DNA from: Propionibacteriaceae bacterium
GTDB lineage: Bacteria > Actinomycetota > Actinomycetes > Propionibacteriales > Propionibacteriaceae
Length of the DNA stretch: 47,458 bases
Assembly: GCA_031261485.1 (NCBI GenBank)
Contig: JAISJO010000060.1
Span: 1 to 47,458, forward strand
Direction: 5' to 3'
Under the pieces are notes generated by a model that was given only the letters and a program-made list of their open reading frames with translations, was not told where the DNA came from and made no database searches. This document shows positions 4,667 through 34,006 of this stretch, piece by piece. The position numbers were made by a program, and so were the translations under genes. Numbering within the stretch: position 1 is the first letter of the stretch; each line of letters opens with the position of its first letter.

Positions 4667-4714
4667 CTTGCGAGAAGACTGTCAGATGGATTCTGCGACT
4701 TCGCGCAGAATGAC
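4667..4714. repeat. Family A dispersed repeat, right-end fragment
   Basis: About 48 bp matching the right end of the 148-bp family A element, ending in the intact terminal sequence TGCGACTTCGCGCAGAATGA plus C. The left end is missing. It lies between the two sugar operons. Confidence 0.75.
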
Positions 4715-9485: not shown

Positions 9486-11984
9486 TTACTGATCTATGGT
9501 CGCGGTGAGGCGGATGTCCTCGACGTTGCGACCAATCAGCACACGGTAAGTGCCACTGGGCACGATCCAAGCGTGAGTTGCCTCGTCCCATACTTCGAAG
9601 GCTCTGCGGGCGATGGTGATCTCGGCCCGCGCATGACTTCCGGGCGCGACCTCGACATTGGCGAACCCAGCCAACCAGCGCAGCGGCCTGGGAGTGTCGG
9701 ACGGCGGAGCTTCCAGATACACCTGGACGACCTCGTTACCGCTGCGGGTTCCGGTATTGCTGATTGTCACTGCGACTGTTGCCCCGCCGTCGGGTGCTTG
9801 GCGCACGTCCGCGTCGGCGTACTCCCAGGTCGTCCAGCCCAAACCGAAGCCGAAGGGCCGAGCCGGAGTACGACCCAGGCGGCGCCAACCGCGATAGCCC
9901 ACATCGATGCCATCGGCGTAATCAACCACCAGATCCTCACCCACTGGAATCGCATCGGGCACGGGGACATCGGCGTACGAACCAGGCAGCGTCCAGGGCA
10001 GACGGCCCGACGGTTCTGTCCGACCGGATAGCACATCCGCCACCGGGCGACCGCCCTCCTGACCGGGGAACCATGTCCACAACACCGTGTTCGCCCGATC
10101 CAGCCAGGGCAGAATGACCGGAGCACCCGCGTTGACAATGATCACCGCATCGGGCCTGACAGCCAGAATCTGTTCGACCAGCAGGTCTTGCTCGCCGGGC
10201 AAGTCGAGGTTGCTGCGATCCCAGCCCTCGGATTCGACATCGGCATTGGTGCCGACAATGACAACGGGCAAGTCGACAGCCTTGGCTCGTTCCACGGCGG
10301 CCTTGATCAGTTCGGAAGAGGTCGGCTCGGGCGGGATGTGCTGAATGACAGCCCTGACGAAATGGGACCAATTGTCGCCCGTGTAATACTGCACCTCAGC
10401 TTGCAGTCGGGCCGTGCCTCCGCCGGCCACGGCCTTACCGTAAGAAGGGACGTTGCGGTGTTGAGAGCGGAGGTACACCTGGTCAGAGGTCAGTTTCTCG
10501 TCGCTGGCCGATACTAGGTCGTCGTTGACCCTGACGATGTGGGCACCCGGCATGGCCGCACCCACCCAATGCTCGCCTGGCTCCGGGATGGCGATATCTG
10601 TTGTCAGACGTACGGTGGCTGTCTCGTGGGGCAAGGGCTCTTTGGAGAAGATGTCGGGGTCTTGCCAGGTCGTCTCCATCAAGACCGTGCCGTCGTCGGC
10701 CAGCGCTTCCACATGGATGCCGGGCTCGTCGGTGACGGGGTTGGTCAGGCGGTCCGCGTGTGCCGTGGGTGGATTGACGCGGGCGCGTGTGCCTTCGATG
10801 ACTTCCACTGTCGCGTTGGGGAAGGCAAGAGAGAACGCTTCTTTGGCGGTGTATGTGCGTTCCGGGTTGACCAATGCGGAACCGCCGCCCTGGACGAAGG
10901 TGTTGACGGCGTTCGGCCCGATGAGGGCGATGCTGCCGATGGTTTCGGGGACCGGGACTGGCAAAGCGTCATTCTTGTTGGCGAGTACGACGACCGCGCG
11001 AGCCGCCAAGGTTCGGATGAAGTCATCGGCGTCGGCGACTGCATGGGCTGGGGTCGCCGGTTCGTACCCGTCCAACGCGCCTACCCTACTGGCCAGCAGG
11101 AGAATGCGAAGTACCTTGTCATCGATGTGTTCCTCACTGACTAGACCGTCCTGGACGGCTTTCAGGAGTTGCCCGGATGACCAAGGTCCAGCAGGCCCAG
11201 GCATGACCAAGTCCAGGCCGCCGAGGGCCGGTTCGACAGTGGTCTTGGTGGCTGTCCAGTCGGAGACCACCAGGCCGTCGTACCCCCATTCGTCTTTCAA
11301 TATCTCGGTCAGAAGGTGGTGGTGGGCCACAGCGGGGGCCGATTCCACGCCATCGTCGAGGCGGTTGTACGAGGCCATGATCGACCAGGCGCCCGAGGAC
11401 GTGCAGGCTTTTTCGAAGGGCGCCATGTACACCTCGCGCAACCCCTGTTCGCTGACACGGGAGAGGTATTCGGTGCGCAGGGTCTCCGAGTCGTTGGCGA
11501 TGAAATGCTTGACGCAGACGCCAATCCCCTCGCCCTGGATGCCGTCGATGATGGCACACCCAATCTCGGCGGAGAGTAGGGGATCCTCCGATTGTGCCTC
11601 GAAATGTCGGCCTCCGACAGGGGTTCGCTGGATGTTCACGACCGGGGCCAGGATGACGTCGACCCCGTGGCGCTTCGCCTCTTCGGCGTGTACCGACCCA
11701 GCCTTTACCGCCAGGTCCCGATCCCAGGTGGCCGCAATGGCCGTTGGGTTGGGCAGTGATATCGAGTGCTCGTCCTCGATGACTTCCTCACCCCTGATTC
11801 CCGTCGGCCCGTCTGAAACCACAACCTCCCGAAGCCCGATCTGCGGTCGCGCGTACAACCTCCAATGCGTCTTACCTGTCAGGAGTTCGCACTTCTCTTC
11901 CAGAGTCAGCTTGGCCAGTCTCGCCCTCAGGTCCTCCGAGAAGGAAGGGTTGGGACGCGGAGCAGATGGCAATGTGGTAATCAC
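9486..11984 (-). CDS. Glycoside hydrolase family 3 beta-glycosidase with PA14-type insert
   Basis: Exo-acting retaining beta-glycosidase, 832 aa, without a signal peptide, so it probably acts in the cytoplasm on imported oligosaccharides. The N-terminal GH3 barrel spans about residues 20-300, with the KHFIAND motif near residue 159 and the nucleophile Asp242 in GLVVSDW. The C-terminal alpha/beta domain is split by a PA14-like beta insert (about 412-548). A fibronectin III-like domain ends the protein (about 735-825). This architecture is known for beta-glucosidases and also for beta-xylosidases or galactosidases, so specificity is open. The GTG start at 11984 has a modest GAGG site upstream. 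Neighbouring importers and xylose genes suggest a role in plant glycan or xylo-oligosaccharide use, by inference. Confidence 0.93.
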   Translation of the reverse strand: MITTLPSAPRPNPSFSEDLRARLAKLTLEEKCELLTGKTHWRLYARPQIGLREVVVSDGPTGIRGEEVIEDEHSISLPNPTAIAATWDRDLAVKAGSVHAEEAKRHGVDVILAPVVNIQRTPVGGRHFEAQSEDPLLSAEIGCAIIDGIQGEGIGVCVKHFIANDSETLRTEYLSRVSEQGLREVYMAPFEKACTSSGAWSIMASYNRLDDGVESAPAVAHHHLLTEILKDEWGYDGLVVSDWTATKTTVEPALGGLDLVMPGPAGPWSSGQLLKAVQDGLVSEEHIDDKVLRILLLASRVGALDGYEPATPAHAVADADDFIRTLAARAVVVLANKNDALPVPVPETIGSIALIGPNAVNTFVQGGGSALVNPERTYTAKEAFSLAFPNATVEVIEGTRARVNPPTAHADRLTNPVTDEPGIHVEALADDGTVLMETTWQDPDIFSKEPLPHETATVRLTTDIAIPEPGEHWVGAAMPGAHIVRVNDDLVSASDEKLTSDQVYLRSQHRNVPSYGKAVAGGGTARLQAEVQYYTGDNWSHFVRAVIQHIPPEPTSSELIKAAVERAKAVDLPVVIVGTNADVESEGWDRSNLDLPGEQDLLVEQILAVRPDAVIIVNAGAPVILPWLDRANTVLWTWFPGQEGGRPVADVLSGRTEPSGRLPWTLPGSYADVPVPDAIPVGEDLVVDYADGIDVGYRGWRRLGRTPARPFGFGLGWTTWEYADADVRQAPDGGATVAVTISNTGTRSGNEVVQVYLEAPPSDTPRPLRWLAGFANVEVAPGSHARAEITIARRAFEVWDEATHAWIVPSGTYRVLIGRNVEDIRLTATIDQ

Positions 11985-24221: not shown

Positions 24222-24821
24222 TCAGAGCAAGCCCACCAGGTGGGCCATCAGCCTGGCCGCTTGCGATGCACCAGCCTGACGCAGGGCAAGAACCGTTGAC
24301 TCATCTGTAGCGCCACGAAGCGAGTCAACGGAGGCTCGATGTACCCAAAGCATCGACTGTTGGTAATCCTGAATGAGTTGGCAGAGCAGGTCGTCTGGTG
24401 TCACCACTGTCAGACCAAGATCCACCATGATGCTGGACGGGAAGTCTTTGACATTGTGAGTACAAATGAACGGGGCATCTGCGGCGATGGCAGCCGCAAT
24501 TATGTGACGGTCATCCTCGTCTGGCAGCTCGATCCCAGCGAGCAAGGCGAACTGTTCCGAATCCGGGTCTCGCTGTGCGTATGGAAAGGTTGTGTTCATG
24601 GCTCGAATGAGACGATCAGCCGAGGCTTGGCTGAAGTTTGGACGGTTATCCATGAGGTGTTCAGTGAGCTCGAAGAGAATTCTTTGGCTCCACACGACAG
24701 AAATCAGTCGAGCACGCATCGCGTACAACAAGTAGTCACGCAGGACTCGCGAATAGAGGACGTTAGCATCTGCCAGGTAGACCTCAATGACCTGATTGTG
24801 GGAAGTCTCGGGTCTGTTCAC
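24222..24821 (-). CDS. PIN-domain protein, probable toxin of an excisionase-linked pair
   Basis: PIN-fold protein of 199 aa, a probable ribonuclease toxin. The first acidic residue is in VYLADANVLYSR and a second cluster is in ELPDEDDRHIIAAAI, followed by the strand-Asn pattern FICTHNVKDFP. I chose the GTG at 24821 since it overlaps the upstream stop as TAGTG, giving coupled translation; an extension to 24905 would run inside the upstream gene. Paired with a small helix-turn-helix protein, it resembles known PIN/excisionase-type toxin-antitoxin modules of actinobacteria. It converges on xylB with only 2 bases between the genes. Confidence 0.82.
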   Translation of the reverse strand: MNRPETSHNQVIEVYLADANVLYSRVLRDYLLYAMRARLISVVWSQRILFELTEHLMDNRPNFSQASADRLIRAMNTTFPYAQRDPDSEQFALLAGIELPDEDDRHIIAAAIAADAPFICTHNVKDFPSSIMVDLGLTVVTPDDLLCQLIQDYQQSMLWVHRASVDSLRGATDESTVLALRQAGASQAARLMAHLVGLL

Positions 24822-25204
24822 TAGTCGGTCAACCCGAGTTCGTTCTGGAGTGCAATCAATTCGGCCATGGCGGCTTCTTGCCGAGCATCTTCGATATCGA
24901 GCCAACGGTGAATCGCGTCGACGCGAATACGATGGTGTGCACCAACCATGCGGAACGGAAGTTTCCCCTCATCCATCAGGTTGCGCACCTGGGCGCGGGA
25001 CATTCCCATCATGCTAGCCGCCTGAGTCGGACTGACCTCTCGTAGCCCATGAGTAATCACGACTTCTTGCCCTCGGGCCTGAGCGTCCATCCATGCCGCC
25101 AGCATCTCGGCCGTCTCGCGCGACAAAGCCACCTGAATATCGTCGCCACCTGAGGACACGGCATTATGCAAGGCGAGCCTGTCGCGTTCAAGGACCGGAG
25201 TCAT
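24821..25204 (-). CDS. Excisionase-like helix-turn-helix protein, probable antitoxin
   Basis: DNA-binding protein of 127 aa. The C-terminal half is an excisionase/MerR-like winged helix (SPTQAASMMGMSRAQVRNLM, then EGKLPFRMVGAHHRIRVDAI). The acidic C-terminus probably contacts the PIN partner. I prefer ATG at 25204 (GGAG 9 bases upstream); ATGs at 25213 and 25219 are alternatives. The open frame runs on to 25546, but that extension is a translation of the family B repeat and not real protein. No integrase is nearby, so it is an antitoxin or regulator and not a phage excisionase. Confidence 0.8.
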   Translation of the reverse strand: MTPVLERDRLALHNAVSSGGDDIQVALSRETAEMLAAWMDAQARGQEVVITHGLREVSPTQAASMMGMSRAQVRNLMDEGKLPFRMVGAHHRIRVDAIHRWLDIEDARQEAAMAELIALQNELGLTD

Positions 25205-25586: not shown

Positions 25587-25690
25587 GTCCCCACATACCG
25601 GAGGACGGCCGCGCCCAAATCCAACACACCCAAAGCCGGGCCGCCCGAGGATGTGTGGGGGTTAGCCGAGGCAGGACGGGGAGTCGGCAC

Positions 25691-27757
25691 TCACTTAGGG
25701 GAGTGGGACCGCGTCACCGCATTGACGATGTCCTCGACGATGACAACACCCTCTAGGATTCCTCGGCTCATACGGGCGGCGGCTGTGGTGTAGAAGGTGT
25801 TTCCTGCGAAGAACTCGCGCGGCTCCCCTACGGAAATCGCCTGTCCGTTGAAGAACATGGCGCACTTGGTGGCGTGGCGGGCACAGAACTCGATGTCGTG
25901 GCTGACCATGAGGACCGTCAAGCCCTCTTGTTCGCGCAGTCGGGACAGGATGGAGGCCAGGCGCGACTTGAAGAAGGCATCCATGCCCTTCGTCGGCTCA
26001 TCGAGAAGAAGGAGTCTTGGGCGAGCCAGTAACGCCATGGCCAGGGCGACTCGCTGCTGTTCGCCGCCGCTGATGTCGTACGGGTGGTTGTGCCGGATGT
26101 GGCCAATCTCGGCCAGGTCGATCACTCGGGCCACCTCGGCGTCCACTTTGTCGGCAACTTCGGACTTGGTGACACCACGTAGGCGGACTTGGTAAGTGGC
26201 CACGTCCTGTAGGTCGTTCAAGACGGTGTTGCGGAGGAAGAGTGTCTGGGGATTCTGAGGAACTGCCACTAGCCCTGCCTCGGCCAAGGCTCGCCCTGAG
26301 GACTTTGCTGGGGTCAGGCCAAGGACGTTCACGCGGCCTCTGTGAGGGCGGTATTGTCCCGTGAGGACTCCTAACATTGTGGATTTGCCTGTTCCGTTGC
26401 CGCCTACCACGGCGTACAACTCGCCAGGTTGTATGGTGAGGGCTAGGTCACGCAGTACATCGGGGGAAGATTGCTCGTACCGGAACCAGACTTCACTTAG
26501 GGATACGATGGGGGTTTCGGTAGTCGAAGTGTGCTGAATCGGGGTGTTTTTGTTGGTATTACCGCCCGGTAATTCCGCTTCAGATGAAGTGGGGCTGTCC
26601 GATATGGATTCTGCGACTGCGTTGCTCTCCGCGCAGAATGACGAGTGAGACCCGTCCAGCGTGGATCCTGCAACTCCGGTCCCCTCCGCATGGAATGACG
26701 AGGAAGGGTCATATTGCTCTTGCCCGGGAGGGATGGATGTTGCGACTCCGGTACTCGCCGCGCGGCATGACAGCGTGGACCCATTCGACGTGGGCTTCGC
26801 GACTTCGTTGCTCTTTGCGGAGGATGACAGCGTGGACCTGTCCGATACGGATTCTGCGACTCCGCTACTCTTTGCGCAGAATGACGGGCGGGACGACGAC
26901 AATGCCGCACTCAACCACGTACGCCCATCGCGTATCGTCACCGGCACATTGTCCGCGACCGCCTTATCCCCGATAACCCCCAAGTATGCCCGAATCGGTG
27001 TGGGCAGTGCCTGTGCCATGGGGTCGCCTGTCTCTCCCAAGGCCACGGCGACCTCGCCAGGCGTCCCCTCGGCGATGATCCGGCCCGACTCCATGACTAT
27101 TGCCTTGTCAGCAGCGGAAAATGCCTTCTCTAGACGGTGTTCTGAGAGCAGGATTGTCACCCCCAACTCATCGTTGAGTTTCTGGAGTGTGGACACGAAC
27201 TCCTCGGCAGCAATGGGGTCCAACTGGCTGGTGGGCTCGTCCAGAATGAGTACATCGGGCTGCATCGCCATGACCGCAGCCAAGTTGAGTATCTGCTTCT
27301 GACCCCCCGACAGTTCGTCGACCAGTGCGTCGTACCACTGCTGTATCCCGAAGAAACTGGCCACTTCGGCCACCCGCCGCCGAATGGTGGGCGTGTCGTG
27401 CCCCAGGCTCTCCAGACCGAAGGCCAGTTCGTGCCACACCTTGTCCGTGACGACTTGGTTCTCGGGCGACTGCGACACGAAACCGATGCGCGACGCCTGT
27501 TCTCGAGCCGGGACCTCCCCCAAGCCACGGCCGTCGAACAGGATGCGCCCACGCACACTCCCATGTGGCGCCAGAACAGTTTTCAGATGCCGCAATAGGG
27601 TTGTCTTGCCGCATCCTGAACGCCCCGCGAGGACCACGAACTCACCCGGGTACACGCTCACATCGACTCTGTCGAGGGCTAGTCGCTCAGTTTGAGGGTA
27701 AGCGAAACTGAGTCCTTCGACATGGAACAATGACGCAGCAGGCAAAGGCTCAGGCAT
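25691..27757 (-). CDS. ECF transporter ATPase with two fused ATP-binding domains
   Basis: Energising subunit of the ECF vitamin transporter, 688 aa, fusing the two ATPases (EcfA/EcfA') that are usually separate. Domain 1 (about 10-260) has Walker A GRSGCGKTT, signature LSGGQKQ and Walker B VLILDEPTS. Domain 2 (about 430-670) has GGNGTGKST, ISGGEQQR and LLLLDEPTKG. The linker between them (about residues 290-395) contains five degenerate family A repeat units and reads as SFCAKSSGVAES-like repeats. ATG at 27757 overlaps the T-component stop by 8 bp (ATGCCTGA). By context it powers cobalamin uptake together with the S and T subunits upstream. Confidence 0.93.
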   Translation of the reverse strand: MPEPLPAASLFHVEGLSFAYPQTERLALDRVDVSVYPGEFVVLAGRSGCGKTTLLRHLKTVLAPHGSVRGRILFDGRGLGEVPAREQASRIGFVSQSPENQVVTDKVWHELAFGLESLGHDTPTIRRRVAEVASFFGIQQWYDALVDELSGGQKQILNLAAVMAMQPDVLILDEPTSQLDPIAAEEFVSTLQKLNDELGVTILLSEHRLEKAFSAADKAIVMESGRIIAEGTPGEVAVALGETGDPMAQALPTPIRAYLGVIGDKAVADNVPVTIRDGRTWLSAALSSSRPSFCAKSSGVAESVSDRSTLSSSAKSNEVAKPTSNGSTLSCRAASTGVATSIPPGQEQYDPSSSFHAEGTGVAGSTLDGSHSSFCAESNAVAESISDSPTSSEAELPGGNTNKNTPIQHTSTTETPIVSLSEVWFRYEQSSPDVLRDLALTIQPGELYAVVGGNGTGKSTMLGVLTGQYRPHRGRVNVLGLTPAKSSGRALAEAGLVAVPQNPQTLFLRNTVLNDLQDVATYQVRLRGVTKSEVADKVDAEVARVIDLAEIGHIRHNHPYDISGGEQQRVALAMALLARPRLLLLDEPTKGMDAFFKSRLASILSRLREQEGLTVLMVSHDIEFCARHATKCAMFFNGQAISVGEPREFFAGNTFYTTAAARMSRGILEGVVIVEDIVNAVTRSHSPK
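26601..26886. repeat. Five degenerate family A units inside the ATPase linker
   Basis: Five copies of a GGATTCTGCGACT...GCGCAGAATGAC-like unit, spaced 57-70 bp, at about 26601, 26660, 26732, 26789 and 26844. All lie in the coding region between the two ATPase domains and keep the frame open. Conserved protein consensus is about SSFCAESNxVAESxSD. Confidence 0.8.
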
Positions 27758-29081
27758 GACTCCCCCCGCCCCCAAAGGCTAGTGCCCGCCAATCCTCCAC
27801 CTCGACTCTGGTCTGCCCCGCACTGGCGAGTCCCCTCTTCCAACGCTGATCGCTGACCACGTCAATAGCCACAGGCCCGAAGCAAATTGCCGCGTGACAA
27901 GCATAAGCGATGACCGCCCACAAGTTCAGCGGGTTCATGATGAACTGCGGAAAGTACGTCACCGACAGCACCGACTTACCAACGAAAACGCACACCAGCC
28001 CCACCAGTATCCCAAAAGCAATAGCAATGTTTCGGTCGCGCGTGTCGAAACGATAGAGGGAGTAAGCGGTGCGCCCCTTGAGCCCGTATCCCCTGGCCCG
28101 CATGGAATCGCCTGTCTCGATGGCATTTTCCAGCGCCCATGTCACCATGATGGACAGAATCGACGTGCCCGCACGTACCTTGGCCATTGTCCTTCGCCAG
28201 AGGCTCCCTCCCGGGCTCCCCGGCTGAGTCGGAGTCGGCGAACTACTCGCAATGTCCACGCCCAAGCCCTGCCGAGCATGAGCCACGAGGGCGAGTTGGC
28301 GGCGATACTTGGGAATCAGCCGCAGAGCCATCGAGATGATGAGAGACAAAGAAGGAATGATGCGGCCGAAGAGGTATATGAACTTGTCAGACGCGATGAC
28401 CGCGTTGTAGCAGGTGAACCAAATGAGCACCGCGCCGACCATGACCGCACCCCAGACGCCGTAGTTGAGCGCTTCCACTGTCCACGGGTTGCCGTTGAGG
28501 TAGAACAGAATGGTGACGCCAGCGTGGTTGAACGCCGGGTTGAGTATGGCCGCTAGGACCATCACGGGCAAGACGAAACCCAGATTGAAGAGCAGGGAAC
28601 GTCGGCCACGCAGGTACGTTGAGTACGCCACGGCAGCGAGAAGTGAGATCGCCAGCAGGACGGGGTGCAGGAAGAACAGGGTGATGACAAGGACATAGGC
28701 GAAGTACGCGAACTCCAGCAGCGGGTGGTACGTTGCGAACTCGGAGGAACGGTGCGCGGCCTGACTGCGGTCGGTTTCCTCCCCTGAACGTGGATGCTGC
28801 GACTTGCGCGCAGCATGACGGGATAGGGGGTTCTTCTCCTCGGCGCCGACTTGCCTGTCCTGGTGCACCCGTCGCAATGCGTCCTCCGCTACCCCACGTC
28901 TGTCATCCTGCGCTCCCCCATGTTCACCATATTGCGCTCCACCGCGACCGTCATCCTGCGCCATCCCGCGACTGGCACCCAGCGGTTCCAATCGCCCGTC
29001 ATCCTGCGCCGTTGCGCCGGGACCGTCATCCTGCGCGAAGTCGCAGGATCCATCAAGTCGATACTGCGTCGCCTCAGGCAT
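27750..29081 (-). CDS. ECF transporter transmembrane T component with repeat-derived N-terminal extension
   Basis: Membrane coupling subunit (EcfT/CbiQ type), 443 aa, longer than the family's usual 250-300. Residues 1-115 are a hydrophilic, Gln/Asp/Arg-rich extension with CDFAQDDG, TAQDDGR and MAQDDGR repeats coded by family A sequence. Predicted membrane helices begin near residue 120. The cytoplasmic coupling region shows RLIPKYRRQLALVAHARQ and GDSMRARGYG, the two Ala-Arg-Gly-type motifs that contact the ATPases. ATG at 29081 overlaps the S-component stop by 8 bp (ATGCCTGA), so the extension is very probably translated. Its ATPase partner overlaps at the other end in the same way. Confidence 0.9.
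   Translation of the reverse strand: MPEATQYRLDGSCDFAQDDGPGATAQDDGRLEPLGASRGMAQDDGRGGAQYGEHGGAQDDRRGVAEDALRRVHQDRQVGAEEKNPLSRHAARKSQHPRSGEETDRSQAAHRSSEFATYHPLLEFAYFAYVLVITLFFLHPVLLAISLLAAVAYSTYLRGRRSLLFNLGFVLPVMVLAAILNPAFNHAGVTILFYLNGNPWTVEALNYGVWGAVMVGAVLIWFTCYNAVIASDKFIYLFGRIIPSLSLIISMALRLIPKYRRQLALVAHARQGLGVDIASSSPTPTQPGSPGGSLWRRTMAKVRAGTSILSIMVTWALENAIETGDSMRARGYGLKGRTAYSLYRFDTRDRNIAIAFGILVGLVCVFVGKSVLSVTYFPQFIMNPLNLWAVIAYACHAAICFGPVAIDVVSDQRWKRGLASAGQTRVEVEDWRALAFGGGGSHA
28790..29060. repeat. Family A units inside the T-component N-terminus
   Basis: One near-complete palindrome (TGGATGCTGCGACTTGCGCG CAGCATGAC, 28790-28819), a good left end (29022-29055, GTCATCCTGCGCGAAGTCGC) and three short GTCATCCTGCGC units near 28901, 28949 and 28997. 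They lie in the first ~100 codons of the T-component gene. Confidence 0.75.
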
Positions 29082-29934
29082 GGAGTCCGACCAGTTCGTG
29101 AGTATCGGCTTCGGTTACGTCCAAATCGGCAGAAGTTGTTTGCAGAAGTATGAGGTCCTCATCAGTGAGAGGCACATCGACGGGGTCGGGCTGCATCAGA
29201 CCGTATTTCACCTTGACACGCTGTATTTTCTCGATCATGGGGTGAGCCAGAATCAGGAGGAATATGACTGTGGACGCTGCGTGCATGGCGTTGAAAGGCG
29301 CTCCGGAAGCTAGCAGAGACAACCATCCTTGCCACGACACTCCGTACGACGCGAACATCAGCAGCGAGCCTGTGTCGACGATGAGCCCGTACAAGACCTG
29401 TACCGACACTGCGCCAAAGACACACAACGCTGCCAGTTGCCGTACCTCGGAGCGTCGGCGCGAACGTACATCCTCGTACACACCCACATGCTCAAATCGA
29501 TGCGAAAACAACAACCCTGCCAAGAACCCAATCAGACCGAAGGCGAGCATCTGCCACGGCGTCCACGGCCCCTGCCCCATGACGAAGTTGGAGAGGAAAG
29601 CGGTCAGGGCACCGACCAAGAATCCGGTCTGAGGGCCGAGTGTCACCGCAGCGATGATGACGATGGCCGCGACGGGCTTGAATTGAGGAACCATGAAGAA
29701 GGCGGCGCGTCCCACGACGCCGATGGTCACCAAGACAGCGACAACGACAAGTTCGCGGGCATGGGGTCGCCGAGCCTCGAACGACACAACGAACGGCAAG
29801 ATTGCGGCCACCACAATCACCATCCCGACAAGGTAATATCCCCGATCGCCCAGGAAGGCCACGTCCAATCCGATGGCCGAGATGGCAAGGAGGAATGCCG
29901 CTGCCGTGCTCAATTTCGTCGTTGCGTTCATCAT
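29074..29934 (-). CDS. ECF transporter S component, probably cobalamin-specific
   Basis: Substrate-binding membrane subunit of 286 aa with about six predicted helices. Segment FMVPQFKPVAAIVIIAAVTL, then LGPQTGFLVGALTAFLSN and GQGPWTPWQM, matches CbrT-like S components known for vitamin B12. The ATG at 29934 overlaps the upstream stop as TGATG; ORF extension to 29961 is not needed. B12 specificity is supported by the cobalamin riboswitch and the transcobalamin-like gene in front of it. The C-terminal ~50 residues are soluble and acidic, which is longer than usual. It should assemble with the T and fused ATPase subunits encoded next. Confidence 0.85.
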   Translation of the reverse strand: MMNATTKLSTAAAFLLAISAIGLDVAFLGDRGYYLVGMVIVVAAILPFVVSFEARRPHARELVVVAVLVTIGVVGRAAFFMVPQFKPVAAIVIIAAVTLGPQTGFLVGALTAFLSNFVMGQGPWTPWQMLAFGLIGFLAGLLFSHRFEHVGVYEDVRSRRRSEVRQLAALCVFGAVSVQVLYGLIVDTGSLLMFASYGVSWQGWLSLLASGAPFNAMHAASTVIFLLILAHPMIEKIQRVKVKYGLMQPDPVDVPLTDEDLILLQTTSADLDVTEADTHELVGLHA

Positions 29935-30944
29935 CACCCGCACTGCCCCGTGGCCGTACAACTGCCGCCCACGTCCGTTCCCAAGTCGCAGGTGTACCGC
30001 AACTCGATGACATCGCCATCGCTGAGAGCGTATTGGCTAGAACCATAGTTCGGGTACCAACCGTTGACCTTGTACATCCAGCCCGACAGCGGCCCGACGT
30101 CGAACTCATAGATATGGCCGATGCCCTCGATATAGCGACTGCCGTACATGGGGTTGTACATCGATTCCATCGGGATGCCATACGCCTGGGTCGTGCGCGC
30201 GAGCACATCGTAAACCGTCTCGCCAGGTGTGTAATTCACGACAACCGGGGTGAGTATCCACCCGCTGGCGGGAACGTAGGGCTTCTTAGCTGAAGCAACG
30301 TTGCCCATGTTGTTCAGTACCGTCTTGACGTCGATGGACAAGGTAACGGTGTGTACCACTGCGGGCGGTGGAGGAGGTGGTGCCACGGGCGGTTGTGGCG
30401 TTGGCTGAGGTGGCTGGGCGGGCTGAGCGGGTTGGCTCCCGGAATCACTCCCTGAACCGCCGCCCGAATTGGACCCGCCGCTTGTTCCGCTGCCCGACCC
30501 ACCACTCGTGCTGGTCGTACTCCCGCTGCCCGACGCGCCACCATTCCCAGTCCCACCTGAAGCAGTGCCGTTTGCTGCCGCTGTACCGGGATCACCCGAA
30601 CTGCCCGCTGAACCAGCAGCAGTCAAACCATCCGACGCATTGCCGCTTGCGCCAGGGGCTGGGTCGCCCGTTCCCGACGCCCTCGCGGTTGCAACTCCCA
30701 CACCGCTTGACGATGCCGCACCCGCCGGACTTGCCACCCCTGTCTGAGAAGGACCAGAACCCAGGGCTAATTCGCTGCCTGAACTCTGGCGTGGAATGAA
30801 CACAATGGCGAGCGCCACAGCAACCACGACGACCAGGCCAGACAGGAGTGCCCTTGTCAGAGGTCGTTTGAGGAGCGCCGTGATCTTTTTCAGCATGGCT
30901 GACTCACTTGGCGGGGGGAGAGGGTGCGGGATGTCATCGGGCAT
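29934..30944 (-). CDS. Membrane-anchored protein with transcobalamin-like DUF4430 domain
   Basis: Surface protein of 336 aa. One membrane helix (about 30-50) is followed by ~140 residues of Gly/Ser/Ala-rich linker and a Pro run (PPVAPPPPPPA). The C-terminal ~130 residues are a DUF4430 domain (GWMYKVNGWYPNYGSSQYAL, SDGDVIELRYTCDLG), the fold of the beta domain of transcobalamin and intrinsic factor. By this homology it should help hold cobalamin at the cell surface and pass it to the S component encoded next. The start is uncertain: the ATG at 30944 has AAAGGA only 1-2 bases away, while Met17 (30896) has no ribosome site. A cobalamin riboswitch lies directly upstream. Confidence 0.85.
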   Translation of the reverse strand: MPDDIPHPLPPPSESAMLKKITALLKRPLTRALLSGLVVVVAVALAIVFIPRQSSGSELALGSGPSQTGVASPAGAASSSGVGVATARASGTGDPAPGASGNASDGLTAAGSAGSSGDPGTAAANGTASGGTGNGGASGSGSTTSTSGGSGSGTSGGSNSGGGSGSDSGSQPAQPAQPPQPTPQPPVAPPPPPPAVVHTVTLSIDVKTVLNNMGNVASAKKPYVPASGWILTPVVVNYTPGETVYDVLARTTQAYGIPMESMYNPMYGSRYIEGIGHIYEFDVGPLSGWMYKVNGWYPNYGSSQYALSDGDVIELRYTCDLGTDVGGSCTATGQCG

Positions 30945-30969
30945 TTCCTTTTATCAGACCACGGATCAG

Positions 30970-31075
30970 GAAGCGCTACCACAAGCAGGCTTTCGGACTC
31001 ATCGCCAAGCGATTTACCGTTGCGGGTCAGTGCCGGGTTTCGACCGGCTTCCCCTGCTTGTGAAAGTGATTATTG
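30970..31075 (-). promoter_or_regulatory. Cobalamin riboswitch 1
   Basis: On the minus strand the core reads GGGGAAGCCGGT, CACTGACCCGCAACGGTAA and GAGTCCGAAAGCC, all diagnostic for cobalamin riboswitches. An outer stem pairs CACAAGCAGG with CCTGCTTGTG (31053-31062 with 30980-30989). The 3' side runs into AGGAA (30945-30949) just before the ATG, which can pair with TTCCT at 30968-30972, so control of translation is likely. The layout is compact. Confidence 0.9.
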
Positions 31076-31152
31076 AGTTTGTCGCGGCGTGTCATCACAC
31101 GACCGCCCTATTGAATCTATCGGTAGCGCATGGGCAGAAGCAAGAATGAGCG

Positions 31153-31185
31153 AGCGGGCCGAGGAATGGGGCGCTTCGGCCCGCT
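31153..31185 (-). terminator. Rho-independent-like terminator after the intrinsic-factor-like gene
   Basis: Ten-base stem AGCGGGCCGA with TCGGCCCGCT, followed on the minus strand by a T-rich stretch (CGCTCATTCTTGCTTC). Lies 31 bp after the stop of the gene at 31216-33144. Confidence 0.65.
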
Positions 31186-31215
31186 ACTCAGGCCTACCTA
31201 CTTGGGAACCGCAGA

Positions 31216-33144
31216 CTAAACAGCACTTGTCTCCACTCTCCTGCGGCGAGCCACACCGAGACCCACAGCACCACTTGCCAATAGCAGCAACGAGAGTTCG
31301 GCTAGTAGAGCGGAAGGACTTGCCGCAACCGCATAACCGCCGGTGTTGACCGCAACCGTATTGCCCGGCCCGGTGGGGCTGCCGGGCGTTGTGGGGCTGA
31401 CCAAACTGACGTCAGTCATGTCGTACAAGTGACTCTGACCAACAAGTTCCCGATACGCAGACACCAAGGCGTACAAACCTTGCTCGGTCGACATGCCGTT
31501 CGCCGGGCCACCCGCATTGTGAGAAAACGCCGTTTGCCCGTTGTTCAAGTCGACACGGTAAGCGGCCAGCGCATCGTATACGATCAGTCCATTCTTGACG
31601 AACCTCGCATCATCGACCGGGATTCCCAGGCCATTGAGTGCGACCAGTACCTGCGCTGCAGACTCCGCACTCGGGTCACCGACGAAAGGACCGAACCCAG
31701 CAGCACGGAACCCACCATCAGGCAATTGCCAGTCTGACAAGGTGGAAAGCGCCCGGTCAATGGCGGCAGCGACATCAGGCTGGTCCTTGTAGGGCGCCAG
31801 TGCCTGCAAAGCCATGCCTGTGATATCGGGGTCTTCACCCGAGCCGCTCAAGGCCCAACCGCCACCTGGCAACTCTCTAGACAAGATGTCAGCAATGAGA
31901 CTTGACCGCGTCGTCTGGTCGGACGAATCAACACAAGTGGCAACAGGATACTGTGCTGTGTCCAGCGCCAGGAGCGCCCATACCGCCCCATTGATTCCCT
32001 GGAGGGTGACCTTCGATTGGCAGCCCAAAGGTGCAGTCAGGTCGTAGCCGGCGACGTTTCGGGCGTCCACACCGAGGGCGGTCACCGCGAGGATGACACG
32101 AGAGTATTCGGTGTATCGGTTCGTGCTCAGGACTCCGTCGGTCTCGACCAAGTGCTGCTCCAAGGATTCCAGGTAAAGTGCCTTGTCAGCCTCAGATAGG
32201 AATCCGCCGCGTGCCAGCCCCATGACGACCCACTCGGCGCCAAATGCAGGGCCGCCACCTACGGTCAGCGCGTTATTCTCGTAGGCGGCGACCCTCTCCA
32301 ACAAAGACATGACGTCGTCAGAAGACGGTGGGGTTCCAGGCAGTTCCGGCTCAGGGGTCCCAGATCCGGGATCTCCAGGCTCAGGCGACTGACTGGTCAA
32401 CTGTGCCAGCGCTGCATCAACTCCGGCCTGACTGGACTCGATATCAGACAAGACAGCGATGGCATTGTCGTATGCGTCCTGCATGCCGGACTGGGCCAAC
32501 TGCGCGGCCTTGTCCGCCGCCGAATTGATGGCAGCGACCGCCTTGGTGAGGGCATCCTTGTTAGCCTGGGTAATGAGGTTGGGAGACCACGCACCCTCCA
32601 CGCCCAAGTCAGAGCCGTAATCGGTCACGGAGAACATGAGCCGGACGACATCGCCTGCCTGTACCTCGTAGTCGGACATTCCCACTTGTCCCATCTCATT
32701 GTTGGCCACCCACATCCAGCCGGACATGAAGAAGTAATCACCCTGGCCGAGCCAGTCAGGGGACGCGCGCCCTTCGACGTCCTCATCCCAATAGTCCTCA
32801 ATGCGCTCTGTGATGTAGTCAGGGATGTCGGCGGTCGCGGAACCGGCATCGTCTTTCAGCGCGACGAGGTAGAAGTTCGACGCGACACTGCCGATGTTTG
32901 TGTATTGAATACCTTCCGAGGTAAGGGTCTGCGCGAGCATTTGCGCCGCAGTCAGGCCCGAGGTTACCGGCACCTCGACGGGCTCAAGAACGTACCCCTG
33001 CCCGAGGGTGAAACGCTCGATACTGAGATATGCGACATTGTCTGCTGCATTTGCTGGCGTGATACTGATGCCGAGGCTGAGCAAGATACCGAGCACGAGT
33101 GCCAGTGTCCTTCCCCGTGGACGACTTGTTTGTGGTTGTTCCAT
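31216..33144 (-). CDS. Secreted intrinsic-factor-like protein: DUF4430 plus prenyltransferase-like barrel
   Basis: Surface protein of 642 aa. The ATG at 33144 is chosen for its AAGGAG site 7 bases upstream. A signal peptide ends at ANA-AD (about 33). Residues ~35-170 form a DUF4430 (transcobalamin-like) domain with SGWMWVANNEMGQ. A FIVAR-like three-helix segment (~175-235) follows, then a Pro-rich linker. The C-terminal ~330 residues are alpha/alpha-barrel repeats of the prenyltransferase type (INGAVWALLALD, DITGMALQAL, LPDGGFRAAGFG), the fold of the alpha domain in transcobalamin and intrinsic factor. A hydrophobic helix and RRRR tail end it, without LPXTG. Domain order is the reverse of the human proteins. 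Riboswitch control points to cobalamin capture. Confidence 0.88.
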   Translation of the reverse strand: MEQPQTSRPRGRTLALVLGILLSLGISITPANAADNVAYLSIERFTLGQGYVLEPVEVPVTSGLTAAQMLAQTLTSEGIQYTNIGSVASNFYLVALKDDAGSATADIPDYITERIEDYWDEDVEGRASPDWLGQGDYFFMSGWMWVANNEMGQVGMSDYEVQAGDVVRLMFSVTDYGSDLGVEGAWSPNLITQANKDALTKAVAAINSAADKAAQLAQSGMQDAYDNAIAVLSDIESSQAGVDAALAQLTSQSPEPGDPGSGTPEPELPGTPPSSDDVMSLLERVAAYENNALTVGGGPAFGAEWVVMGLARGGFLSEADKALYLESLEQHLVETDGVLSTNRYTEYSRVILAVTALGVDARNVAGYDLTAPLGCQSKVTLQGINGAVWALLALDTAQYPVATCVDSSDQTTRSSLIADILSRELPGGGWALSGSGEDPDITGMALQALAPYKDQPDVAAAIDRALSTLSDWQLPDGGFRAAGFGPFVGDPSAESAAQVLVALNGLGIPVDDARFVKNGLIVYDALAAYRVDLNNGQTAFSHNAGGPANGMSTEQGLYALVSAYRELVGQSHLYDMTDVSLVSPTTPGSPTGPGNTVAVNTGGYAVAASPSALLAELSLLLLASGAVGLGVARRRRVETSAV

Positions 33145-33210
33145 GTTATGGCTCCTTGTTGGCGGTGGTTGCGCTGCCATCCACGGAGCATCCACCCTGG
33201 GACACTGCCA

Positions 33211-33250
33211 ACAAAAAAGGCAACCTGGAACTCAATAGTTCCTGGTTGCC
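33211..33250 (-). terminator. Riboswitch-associated terminator
   Basis: On the minus strand GGCAACC and AGTTCC arms pair in a 14-bp stem with one mismatch (33219-33250), followed by TTTTTT (33213-33218). It lies between riboswitch 2 and the start codon, so it fits transcription attenuation by cobalamin. Confidence 0.8.
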
Positions 33251-33268
33251 AACCCCTAGAAAACAAGA

Positions 33269-33298
33269 ATGCTCTCTAGATAGCGACCCAGAGAGCAT
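33269..33298 (-). promoter_or_regulatory. Second hairpin of the riboswitch 2 expression platform
   Basis: ATGCTCTCT pairs perfectly with AGAGAGCAT around a 12-base loop, followed by TTCTTGTTTTC on the minus strand. It may be a second terminator in tandem or an anti-terminator partner. Confidence 0.5.
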
Positions 33299-33344
33299 GC
33301 GTCAATTCCTTGACTTACGCCCCGCAGACCCCGACGGTTGGAAA

Positions 33345-33440
33345 CGCTGCTGCAAGAGGGCATTCGGACTTATCGCTGATGCGATCTACCGTTGCGGGTC
33401 AGTTCCGGATTTTGACCGGATTCCCCCGCCTGCAGAGATA
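33345..33440 (-). promoter_or_regulatory. Cobalamin riboswitch 2
   Basis: Minus-strand core GGGGGAATCCGGTCAAAATC, ACTGACCCGCAACGGTAGAT and AAGTCCGAATGCC matches the cobalamin riboswitch consensus and shares a 16-base block with riboswitch 1. An outer stem pairs CTGCAG-type arms near 33346 and 33435. Two hairpins and a T-tract follow before the gene. This accounts for most of the 532-bp gap between 33144 and 33677. Confidence 0.9.
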
Positions 33441-33606
33441 TTCAGTTATCGCCGCCCCTCCGAGAAGGTGACAGCACGGCCAATCTAGCGGTACCAACGG
33501 TGTGTCTCCAAATCGTTGTCTCCATCAACTCAAGAAAGGCTGTGCATAACCCGCATTGGGAAGTGAATCCCGCTTAGTGTGAATCGAGCGGCACAGCTTG
33601 TGAGTC

Positions 33607-33635: not shown

Positions 33636-33680
33636 ATGATGCGAAGAGATCAACTCCTGGCACAAGAGGAGCAGGAATGA
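33636..33680 (+). CDS. 14-codon leader ORF, possible HicA remnant
   Basis: ATG ATG start, reading MMRRDQLLAQEEQE then TGA, with GGAG 5 bases before the second ATG. Its stop overlaps the HicB-like start as ATGA. The first residues resemble the M(K/T)RRDLL start of HicA toxins, and HicA normally sits here. Either a truncated hicA or a coupling leader peptide; tentative. Confidence 0.35.
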   Translation: MMRRDQLLAQEEQE

Positions 33681-34006
33681 ACGTCGCCGACCATTACACC
33701 TACCGCGTCCACTGGTCCGCCGAAGATGACGCCTACGTCGGGACTGTCGCCGAAATGCCATCTCTATCCTGGATTGCAGACGACCAAGACGACGCCTTTG
33801 TTGGCATCCGCACGCTGTGCGTCGAGGCGGTCGACGACATGCTGGCGGATGGCGAAACCCCACCCGCGCCACTCGCCGACCGGGAGTACTCTGGCAAGTT
33901 CGTTGTCCGCGTGCCACCAGAAGCCCACCGCCTCTTGGTCATCGAAGCGGCCGAACAGAACGTCTCCCTGAACCGCCTCGCAGTGTCCCGACTCGTCCGC
34001 GCATAA
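33677..34006 (+). CDS. hicB: HicB-family antitoxin-like protein, orphan
   Basis: HicB-like protein of 109 aa. The N-terminal ~65 residues have the partial RNase H-like fold (YTYRVHWSAEDDAYVGTVAE, then PSLSW). The C-terminal ~40 residues are a ribbon-helix-helix DNA-binding domain (KFVVRVPPEAHRLLVIEAAE). AGGAG lies 5 bases before the ATG. No HicA toxin is encoded beside it; only a 14-codon leader ORF overlaps its start. It may be a degenerated toxin-antitoxin system or a stand-alone regulator. A palindrome 58 bp upstream fits autoregulation. Confidence 0.85.
   Translation: MNVADHYTYRVHWSAEDDAYVGTVAEMPSLSWIADDQDDAFVGIRTLCVEAVDDMLADGETPPAPLADREYSGKFVVRVPPEAHRLLVIEAAEQNVSLNRLAVSRLVRA

Follow-up and report, generated by a model that had tools for sequence, protein, structure and literature searches.

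Two units behind cobalamin riboswitches

The stretch of DNA analysed here, 47,458 nucleotides of contig JAISJO010000060.1 from a member of the Propionibacteriaceae (referred to in its entirety as the window), contains five minus-strand open reading frames (ORFs), between positions 25691 and 33144, which most likely encode a system for capturing corrinoids outside of the cell and importing them. The ORFs are arranged in two units: unit 1 (31216-33144) consists of a single gene for a 642-amino-acid (aa) protein with an alpha/alpha barrel, and unit 2 (25691-30944) comprises the genes for a 336-aa protein with a DUF4430 domain and for the S component, the T component and the double ATPase of an energy-coupling factor (ECF) transporter. 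Each unit lies behind its own cobalamin riboswitch. Both aptamers, located on the minus strand at 33338-33476 (unit 1; 36.2 bits, E 1.1e-5) and at 30967-31076 (unit 2; 42.7 bits, E 1.5e-7), exceed the Rfam gathering score of 31.5 bits for the covariance model RF00174. A first-pass annotation had placed the five ORFs at these same positions and each minus-strand unit under a cobalamin riboswitch, which our data confirm; the span that it assigned to the locus, 25691 to 33440, covers all of the ORFs but ends too early, since it cuts the riboswitch of unit 1.

In the leader of unit 1, between aptamer and gene, a probable expression platform (33219-33298, minus strand) consists of two strong hairpins at 33269-33298 and 33219-33250, the second of which is followed by a run of T. 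For the region 33205-33300 the folding energy is -41.1 kcal/mol (z -4.9), with equal stability reached by 0 of 200 shuffled sequences. By their appearance the hairpins form a transcription terminator, and hairpins, T run and folding statistics together make a terminator switch likely in this unit. The leader of unit 2 folds with a z of -0.41 and has no clear expression platform, and an overall scan for promoters and terminators did no better than on shuffled sequence.

Surface proteins and transporter

The 336-aa protein (29934-30944, minus strand) has the appearance of a membrane-anchored surface protein, with a hydrophobic N-terminal anchor, a linker rich in Gly, Ser and Pro, and a C-terminal DUF4430 domain that scores far above the Pfam cut-off (PF14478; 57.1 versus 23.8 bits, E 2.5e-15). 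The structure model of this domain (predicted local distance difference test, pLDDT, 96.8) has haptocorrin, intrinsic factor or transcobalamin as all of its 14 best structural matches, and its top matches include 5np4, the isolated beta domain of transcobalamin with bound cyanocobalamin. This bears out the annotation of DUF4430 as the beta-domain fold of eukaryotic transcobalamin and intrinsic factor. Identity to the mammalian carriers over the beta domain is 14-19% in the structure comparison; the DUF4430 sequence profile did not reach transcobalamin in the PDB, which structure comparison alone does, and for the beta domain alone. Cobalamin binding by the DUF4430 domains would be in keeping with this fold.

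The 642-aa protein of unit 1 (31216-33144, minus strand; its length is counted from an ATG at 33144 immediately 3' of AAGGAG) begins with what appears to be a signal peptide, followed by a DUF4430-type beta domain, a linker, the alpha/alpha barrel, and a C-terminal hydrophobic stretch with a basic tail. Its DUF4430 domain remains just below the Pfam cut-off (23.1 versus 23.8 bits) but is linked to that of the 336-aa protein by profile comparison (99.5%, E 1.4e-22). The further proposal that the barrel corresponds to the alpha domain of transcobalamin and intrinsic factor fared less well. Structure comparison of the whole-protein model does return an alpha/alpha toroid, but the 50 structural matches listed for the barrel belong to enzymes such as terpene cyclases and sugar epimerases, which together with unsaturated glucuronyl hydrolases are its nearest neighbours. 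Neither transcobalamin nor intrinsic factor is among these 50, nor did the barrel's sequence profile reach transcobalamin in the PDB. The window proteins differ from the mammalian carriers also in that they look cell-anchored and in that the domain order of the 642-aa protein is reversed, i.e. the beta domain comes first.

These structural neighbours of the barrel fit an alternative in which the ECF transporter imports cobalamin, while the surface proteins bind other things, e.g. glycans or proteins, or merely anchor the system. Also consistent with it are a relative (locus L121) that carries FIVAR domains and a carbohydrate-binding domain, the latter below its cut-off, as well as the caution, voiced by a reviewer of Burroughs, Balaji, Iyer and Aravind (2007; PMC1796856), that B12 should not be taken for the sole ligand. 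However, the DUF4430 fold specifically matches B12 carriers, and surface-protein genes have cobalamin riboswitches even in three loci (L121, L122 and L123) whose fetched stretches yielded no recognised S or T gene, which makes this alternative unlikely. Less probable still is an enzymatic role, in which the barrel protein would be secreted and act on a corrinoid or a terpenoid instead of being a binder. DXDD is the acid catalytic motif of class II terpene cyclases; it occurs in 0 of 52 aligned barrels (the 52 of 62 rows with letters at this position), for which reason an active cyclase was rejected, whereas a DxDxT motif is found in 52 of 52. Moreover, the barrel protein looks secreted and adjoins an importer.

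The ORF of the S component (29074-29961, minus strand; Pfam ECF_trnsprt, E 2.7e-13) overlaps the 3' end of the gene for the 336-aa protein. Among all PDB sequences, its best match is CbrT (6fnp_A, E 2e-8; next 4hzu_S, 0.27), and a profile of its family, comprising 41 of 81 relatives, makes this assignment stronger (CbrT, 3.2e-16; next 4hzu_S, 0.0047). CbrT is described, in the relevant passages of PMC5997447, as a proven S component for cobalamin and cobinamide. The T component (27750-29081, minus strand) has no Pfam match over the cut-off and no NCBIfam match; a profile of its family, however, matches the EcfT chains of 5d3m and of the CbrT complex 6fnp (E 4.1e-18). The part that it has in common with its relatives extends over 27837-28715. 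Because about 120 N-terminal residues precede this part and look repeat-derived (repeats at 28887-29045), the true start may lie downstream of the ORF start. A dispersed 21-base repeat (TGCGACTTCGCGCAGRATGAC-like), of which the window contains nine copies (at 4694, 14624, 14751, 22697, 29025, 36899, 37029, 45527 and 45573) and shuffled sequences contain none, also has one copy within the T-component ORF. The ATPase (25691-27775, minus strand) unites two ABC domains in one chain (Pfam ABC_tran twice; TIGR04520, ECF_ATPase, 330.7 bits with a cut-off of 315), joined by a repeat-derived linker with five copies of a 63-nt repeat (26589-26894).

An ECF transporter with S component, T component and fused ATPase, as originally annotated, is thus present, and by homology this complex would take up cobalamin in an ATP-driven manner. 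In its parts, i.e. a homologous S component, EcfT and two ABC domains, it resembles ECF-CbrT of Lactobacillus delbrueckii (6FNP). In the latter, according to passages of PMC5997447, eight predicted S components, CbrT among them, share one ECF module, and CbrT is encoded in the context nrdJ-cbrS-cbrT-pduO, whereas the window locus has a T component of its own, an ATPase with two fused ABC domains, and surface proteins. Near one end of the locus lies an ORF for a PIN-domain protein (24222-24905, minus strand), and near the other an ORF of the HicB family (33677-34006, plus strand).

Related loci and the B12 metabolism of the hosts

A genome scan for relatives of the S component yielded at least 593 loci, of which the best 80 were kept, with up to 10 kb of DNA fetched on each side and some loci ending at a contig end. 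ORFs for DUF4430 (65), the barrel (52), the T component (73) and the ATPase (77) are common among these best 80 of 593; 15 have neither DUF4430 nor a barrel, some of them being ended by a contig end. A search for the same gene order in other genomes had been proposed as a check. The order found in the window, with S before T, is not that of most relatives tabulated: these have barrel, DUF4430, T, ATPase and S, and S precedes T in loci L026 and L027 of Clostridiales Family XIII. Forty-five of the 80 loci were searched with Rfam; seven of these 45 are truncated at their 5' end and one has no surface gene. Among the 37 assessable loci, 30 have a cobalamin-type riboswitch no more than 4 kb 5' of a surface gene (in 25 it is within 700 bases of the first surface ORF), and seven have none.

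Individual relatives show variants of this control. Two tandem cobalamin riboswitches precede a single gene combining barrel and DUF4430 in L040 (2355-2814) and L045 (661-1224). In L119, from a further Propionibacteriaceae genome (G109), a riboswitch of a class other than RF00174, AdoCbl-II (10440-10520; 36.9 bits, cut-off 36.5), lies directly 5' of a homologous barrel gene. L123, from another family genome (G095), has two divergent cobalamin riboswitches (9511-9830), one of them at the start of a 1091-aa DUF4430 ORF; in the 18 kb fetched, neither an S nor a T gene was recognised. CbiC is present in the G095 genome.

DUF4430 is rare in the Propionibacteriaceae (8 of 147 genomes). A tree built from 82 S components places the one from the window beside Clostridiales loci, three of them from Family XIII, with weak support (80/55), and a single clade of the four S components from Propionibacteriaceae is rejected (approximately unbiased test, p-AU 0.0025). 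As judged from these sequences, the locus likely has more than one origin in this family.

The genome to which the window belongs has no match for CbiC, CbiD or CobS, and it has MetH, methylmalonyl-CoA mutase and a PduO-type adenosyltransferase. From this gene content the host is probably a B12 auxotroph that would be able to use complete corrinoids alone. CbiC, which functions in ring synthesis, is present in 84 of 147 sampled genomes of the family, and a CbiC match is absent in all five of those that carry a close S component (E at most 1e-60) as opposed to 58 of the 142 others (one-sided Fisher p 0.013, not corrected for kinship). Riboswitch control is also known on cobalt and precursor transport genes. 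A cargo other than complete cobalamin (a precursor of corrinoids, a piece of the lower ligand, or cobalt) is nevertheless the least probable of the alternatives, even with cobinamide being another substrate of CbrT (passages of PMC5997447), since this host, without a match for CbiC, CbiD or CobS, could make little use of precursors or cobalt, the S component matches CbrT, and its Pfam matches up to E 1 include no member of the cobalt-type CbiM family.

On another contig (C86) of the same genome, a third cobalamin riboswitch (25626-25774; 23.2 bits, sub-threshold) precedes a minus-strand pair of genes (9636-11551 in locus L118). One encodes a barrel-only surface protein of 437 aa (SCO2321-like, E 2.8e-16, below the cut-off of that model), the other a small protein of 228 aa with a lipoprotein-like start, no Pfam match and no PDB sequence match. 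Membership of this small protein in DUF4430 is not supported by profile comparison (0.2% and 0.5% probability). Its family has four invariant cysteines in 26 rows and relatives in 27 of 147 family genomes. In six of six stretches (L154-L159), genes for the ATPase and the S component lie downstream of the small-protein gene and on its strand, with a T gene recognised in all except L154. A barrel gene was recognised directly 5' of the small-protein gene in two (L154, L159), and L156 and L158 have a barrel-like ORF at the opposite end, beyond the S gene; in the stretches fetched for L155 and L157 no barrel ORF was recognised. In two genomes of the same genus (L160, L161), barrel and small protein occur with no ECF gene in the stretch fetched. 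L161 is the only one of these eight stretches with a cobalamin riboswitch above the cut-off (34.5 bits, just 5' of the barrel gene), the other seven having none. The S components of native actinobacterial operons have no CbrT match among PDB sequences, yet match the S-family profile. In some relatives, then, the small protein occupies the place of DUF4430 upstream of the T, ATPase and S genes, and we tentatively consider, as a doubtful but possible reading, that barrel-only protein and small secreted protein could represent a second, actinobacterial version of the system, i.e. a split, two-chain counterpart of intrinsic factor. CbiC is found in 5 of 23 genomes with the small-protein family versus 79 of 124 others (Fisher p 0.0004, not corrected for kinship, four weak matches left out); as a side observation, this family marks genomes mostly without a CbiC match (18 of 23).

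Predicted capture and import of corrinoids

Overall, we interpret the locus in the window as a system by which a B12 auxotroph scavenges corrinoids, with a probability of about 0.8. The role in B12 capture and import that had been assigned to it is well supported by the riboswitches, the CbrT-type S component, the transcobalamin-type beta domain and the probable auxotrophy of the host. At low intracellular levels of coenzyme B12, the two riboswitches would permit expression, in unit 1 probably by the terminator not forming. Two proteins would then bind cobalamin outside of the membrane via their transcobalamin-type beta domains: the 642-aa protein, which its C-terminal anchor would keep at the surface, and the 336-aa DUF4430 protein, which is likewise tethered. 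The barrel may provide the second half of the cobalamin site. The two proteins would pass cobalamin on to the CbrT-type S component, whose transport through the membrane would be powered by EcfT and the double-ATPase module. The useful cargo is likely to be complete cobalamin, because CobS, which finishes cobinamide, was not found in the host's own genome. Once inside, the vitamin would feed MetH and, after adenosylation by the PduO-type enzyme, methylmalonyl-CoA mutase. A comparable logic is known from BtuG-BtuB of Bacteroides, where B12 is captured at the surface and then imported; the likeness is one of logic alone, as proteins and envelope type differ. In SEED annotations, a predicted ECF transporter for cobalamin has a lipoprotein component.

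Contrary to what the first-pass annotation suggests, the idea of such capture goes back further. In the relevant passages, Burroughs et al. (2007; PMC1796856) described a transcobalamin-like clade of SLBB domains in bacteria, fused to alpha/alpha toroids in both orders and accompanied by a second extracellular SLBB protein, in predicted operons with genes for a CbiO-like ATPase and a CbiQ-like membrane protein. The hosts usually were without B12 synthesis, scavenging of B12 or its precursors was predicted, and a transfer of such proteins to animals was proposed. On the basis of the shared transcobalamin fold we take this SLBB domain to be Pfam DUF4430; parts and predicted role would then be the same as in the window, which most likely holds a further example of the type of system predicted in 2007. 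The word riboswitch is absent from the main text of that paper (PMC1796856), and its passages on this clade name neither an S component nor actinobacteria. To this the window adds two riboswitches and a CbrT-type S component in an actinobacterial genome.

Among titles and abstracts from full-text searches, mostly outside subscription journals, we found no experimental study of such proteins, and B12 capture outside of the cell by Gram-positive bacteria has apparently been little tested so far. In a probable auxotroph, the locus brings B12 riboswitches together with an S component related to an established one for cobalamin and with surface proteins that share a domain fold with the animal carriers. 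It could serve as a small system in which to test the 2007 prediction, and with it the proposal that animal B12 carriers descend from such bacterial proteins.

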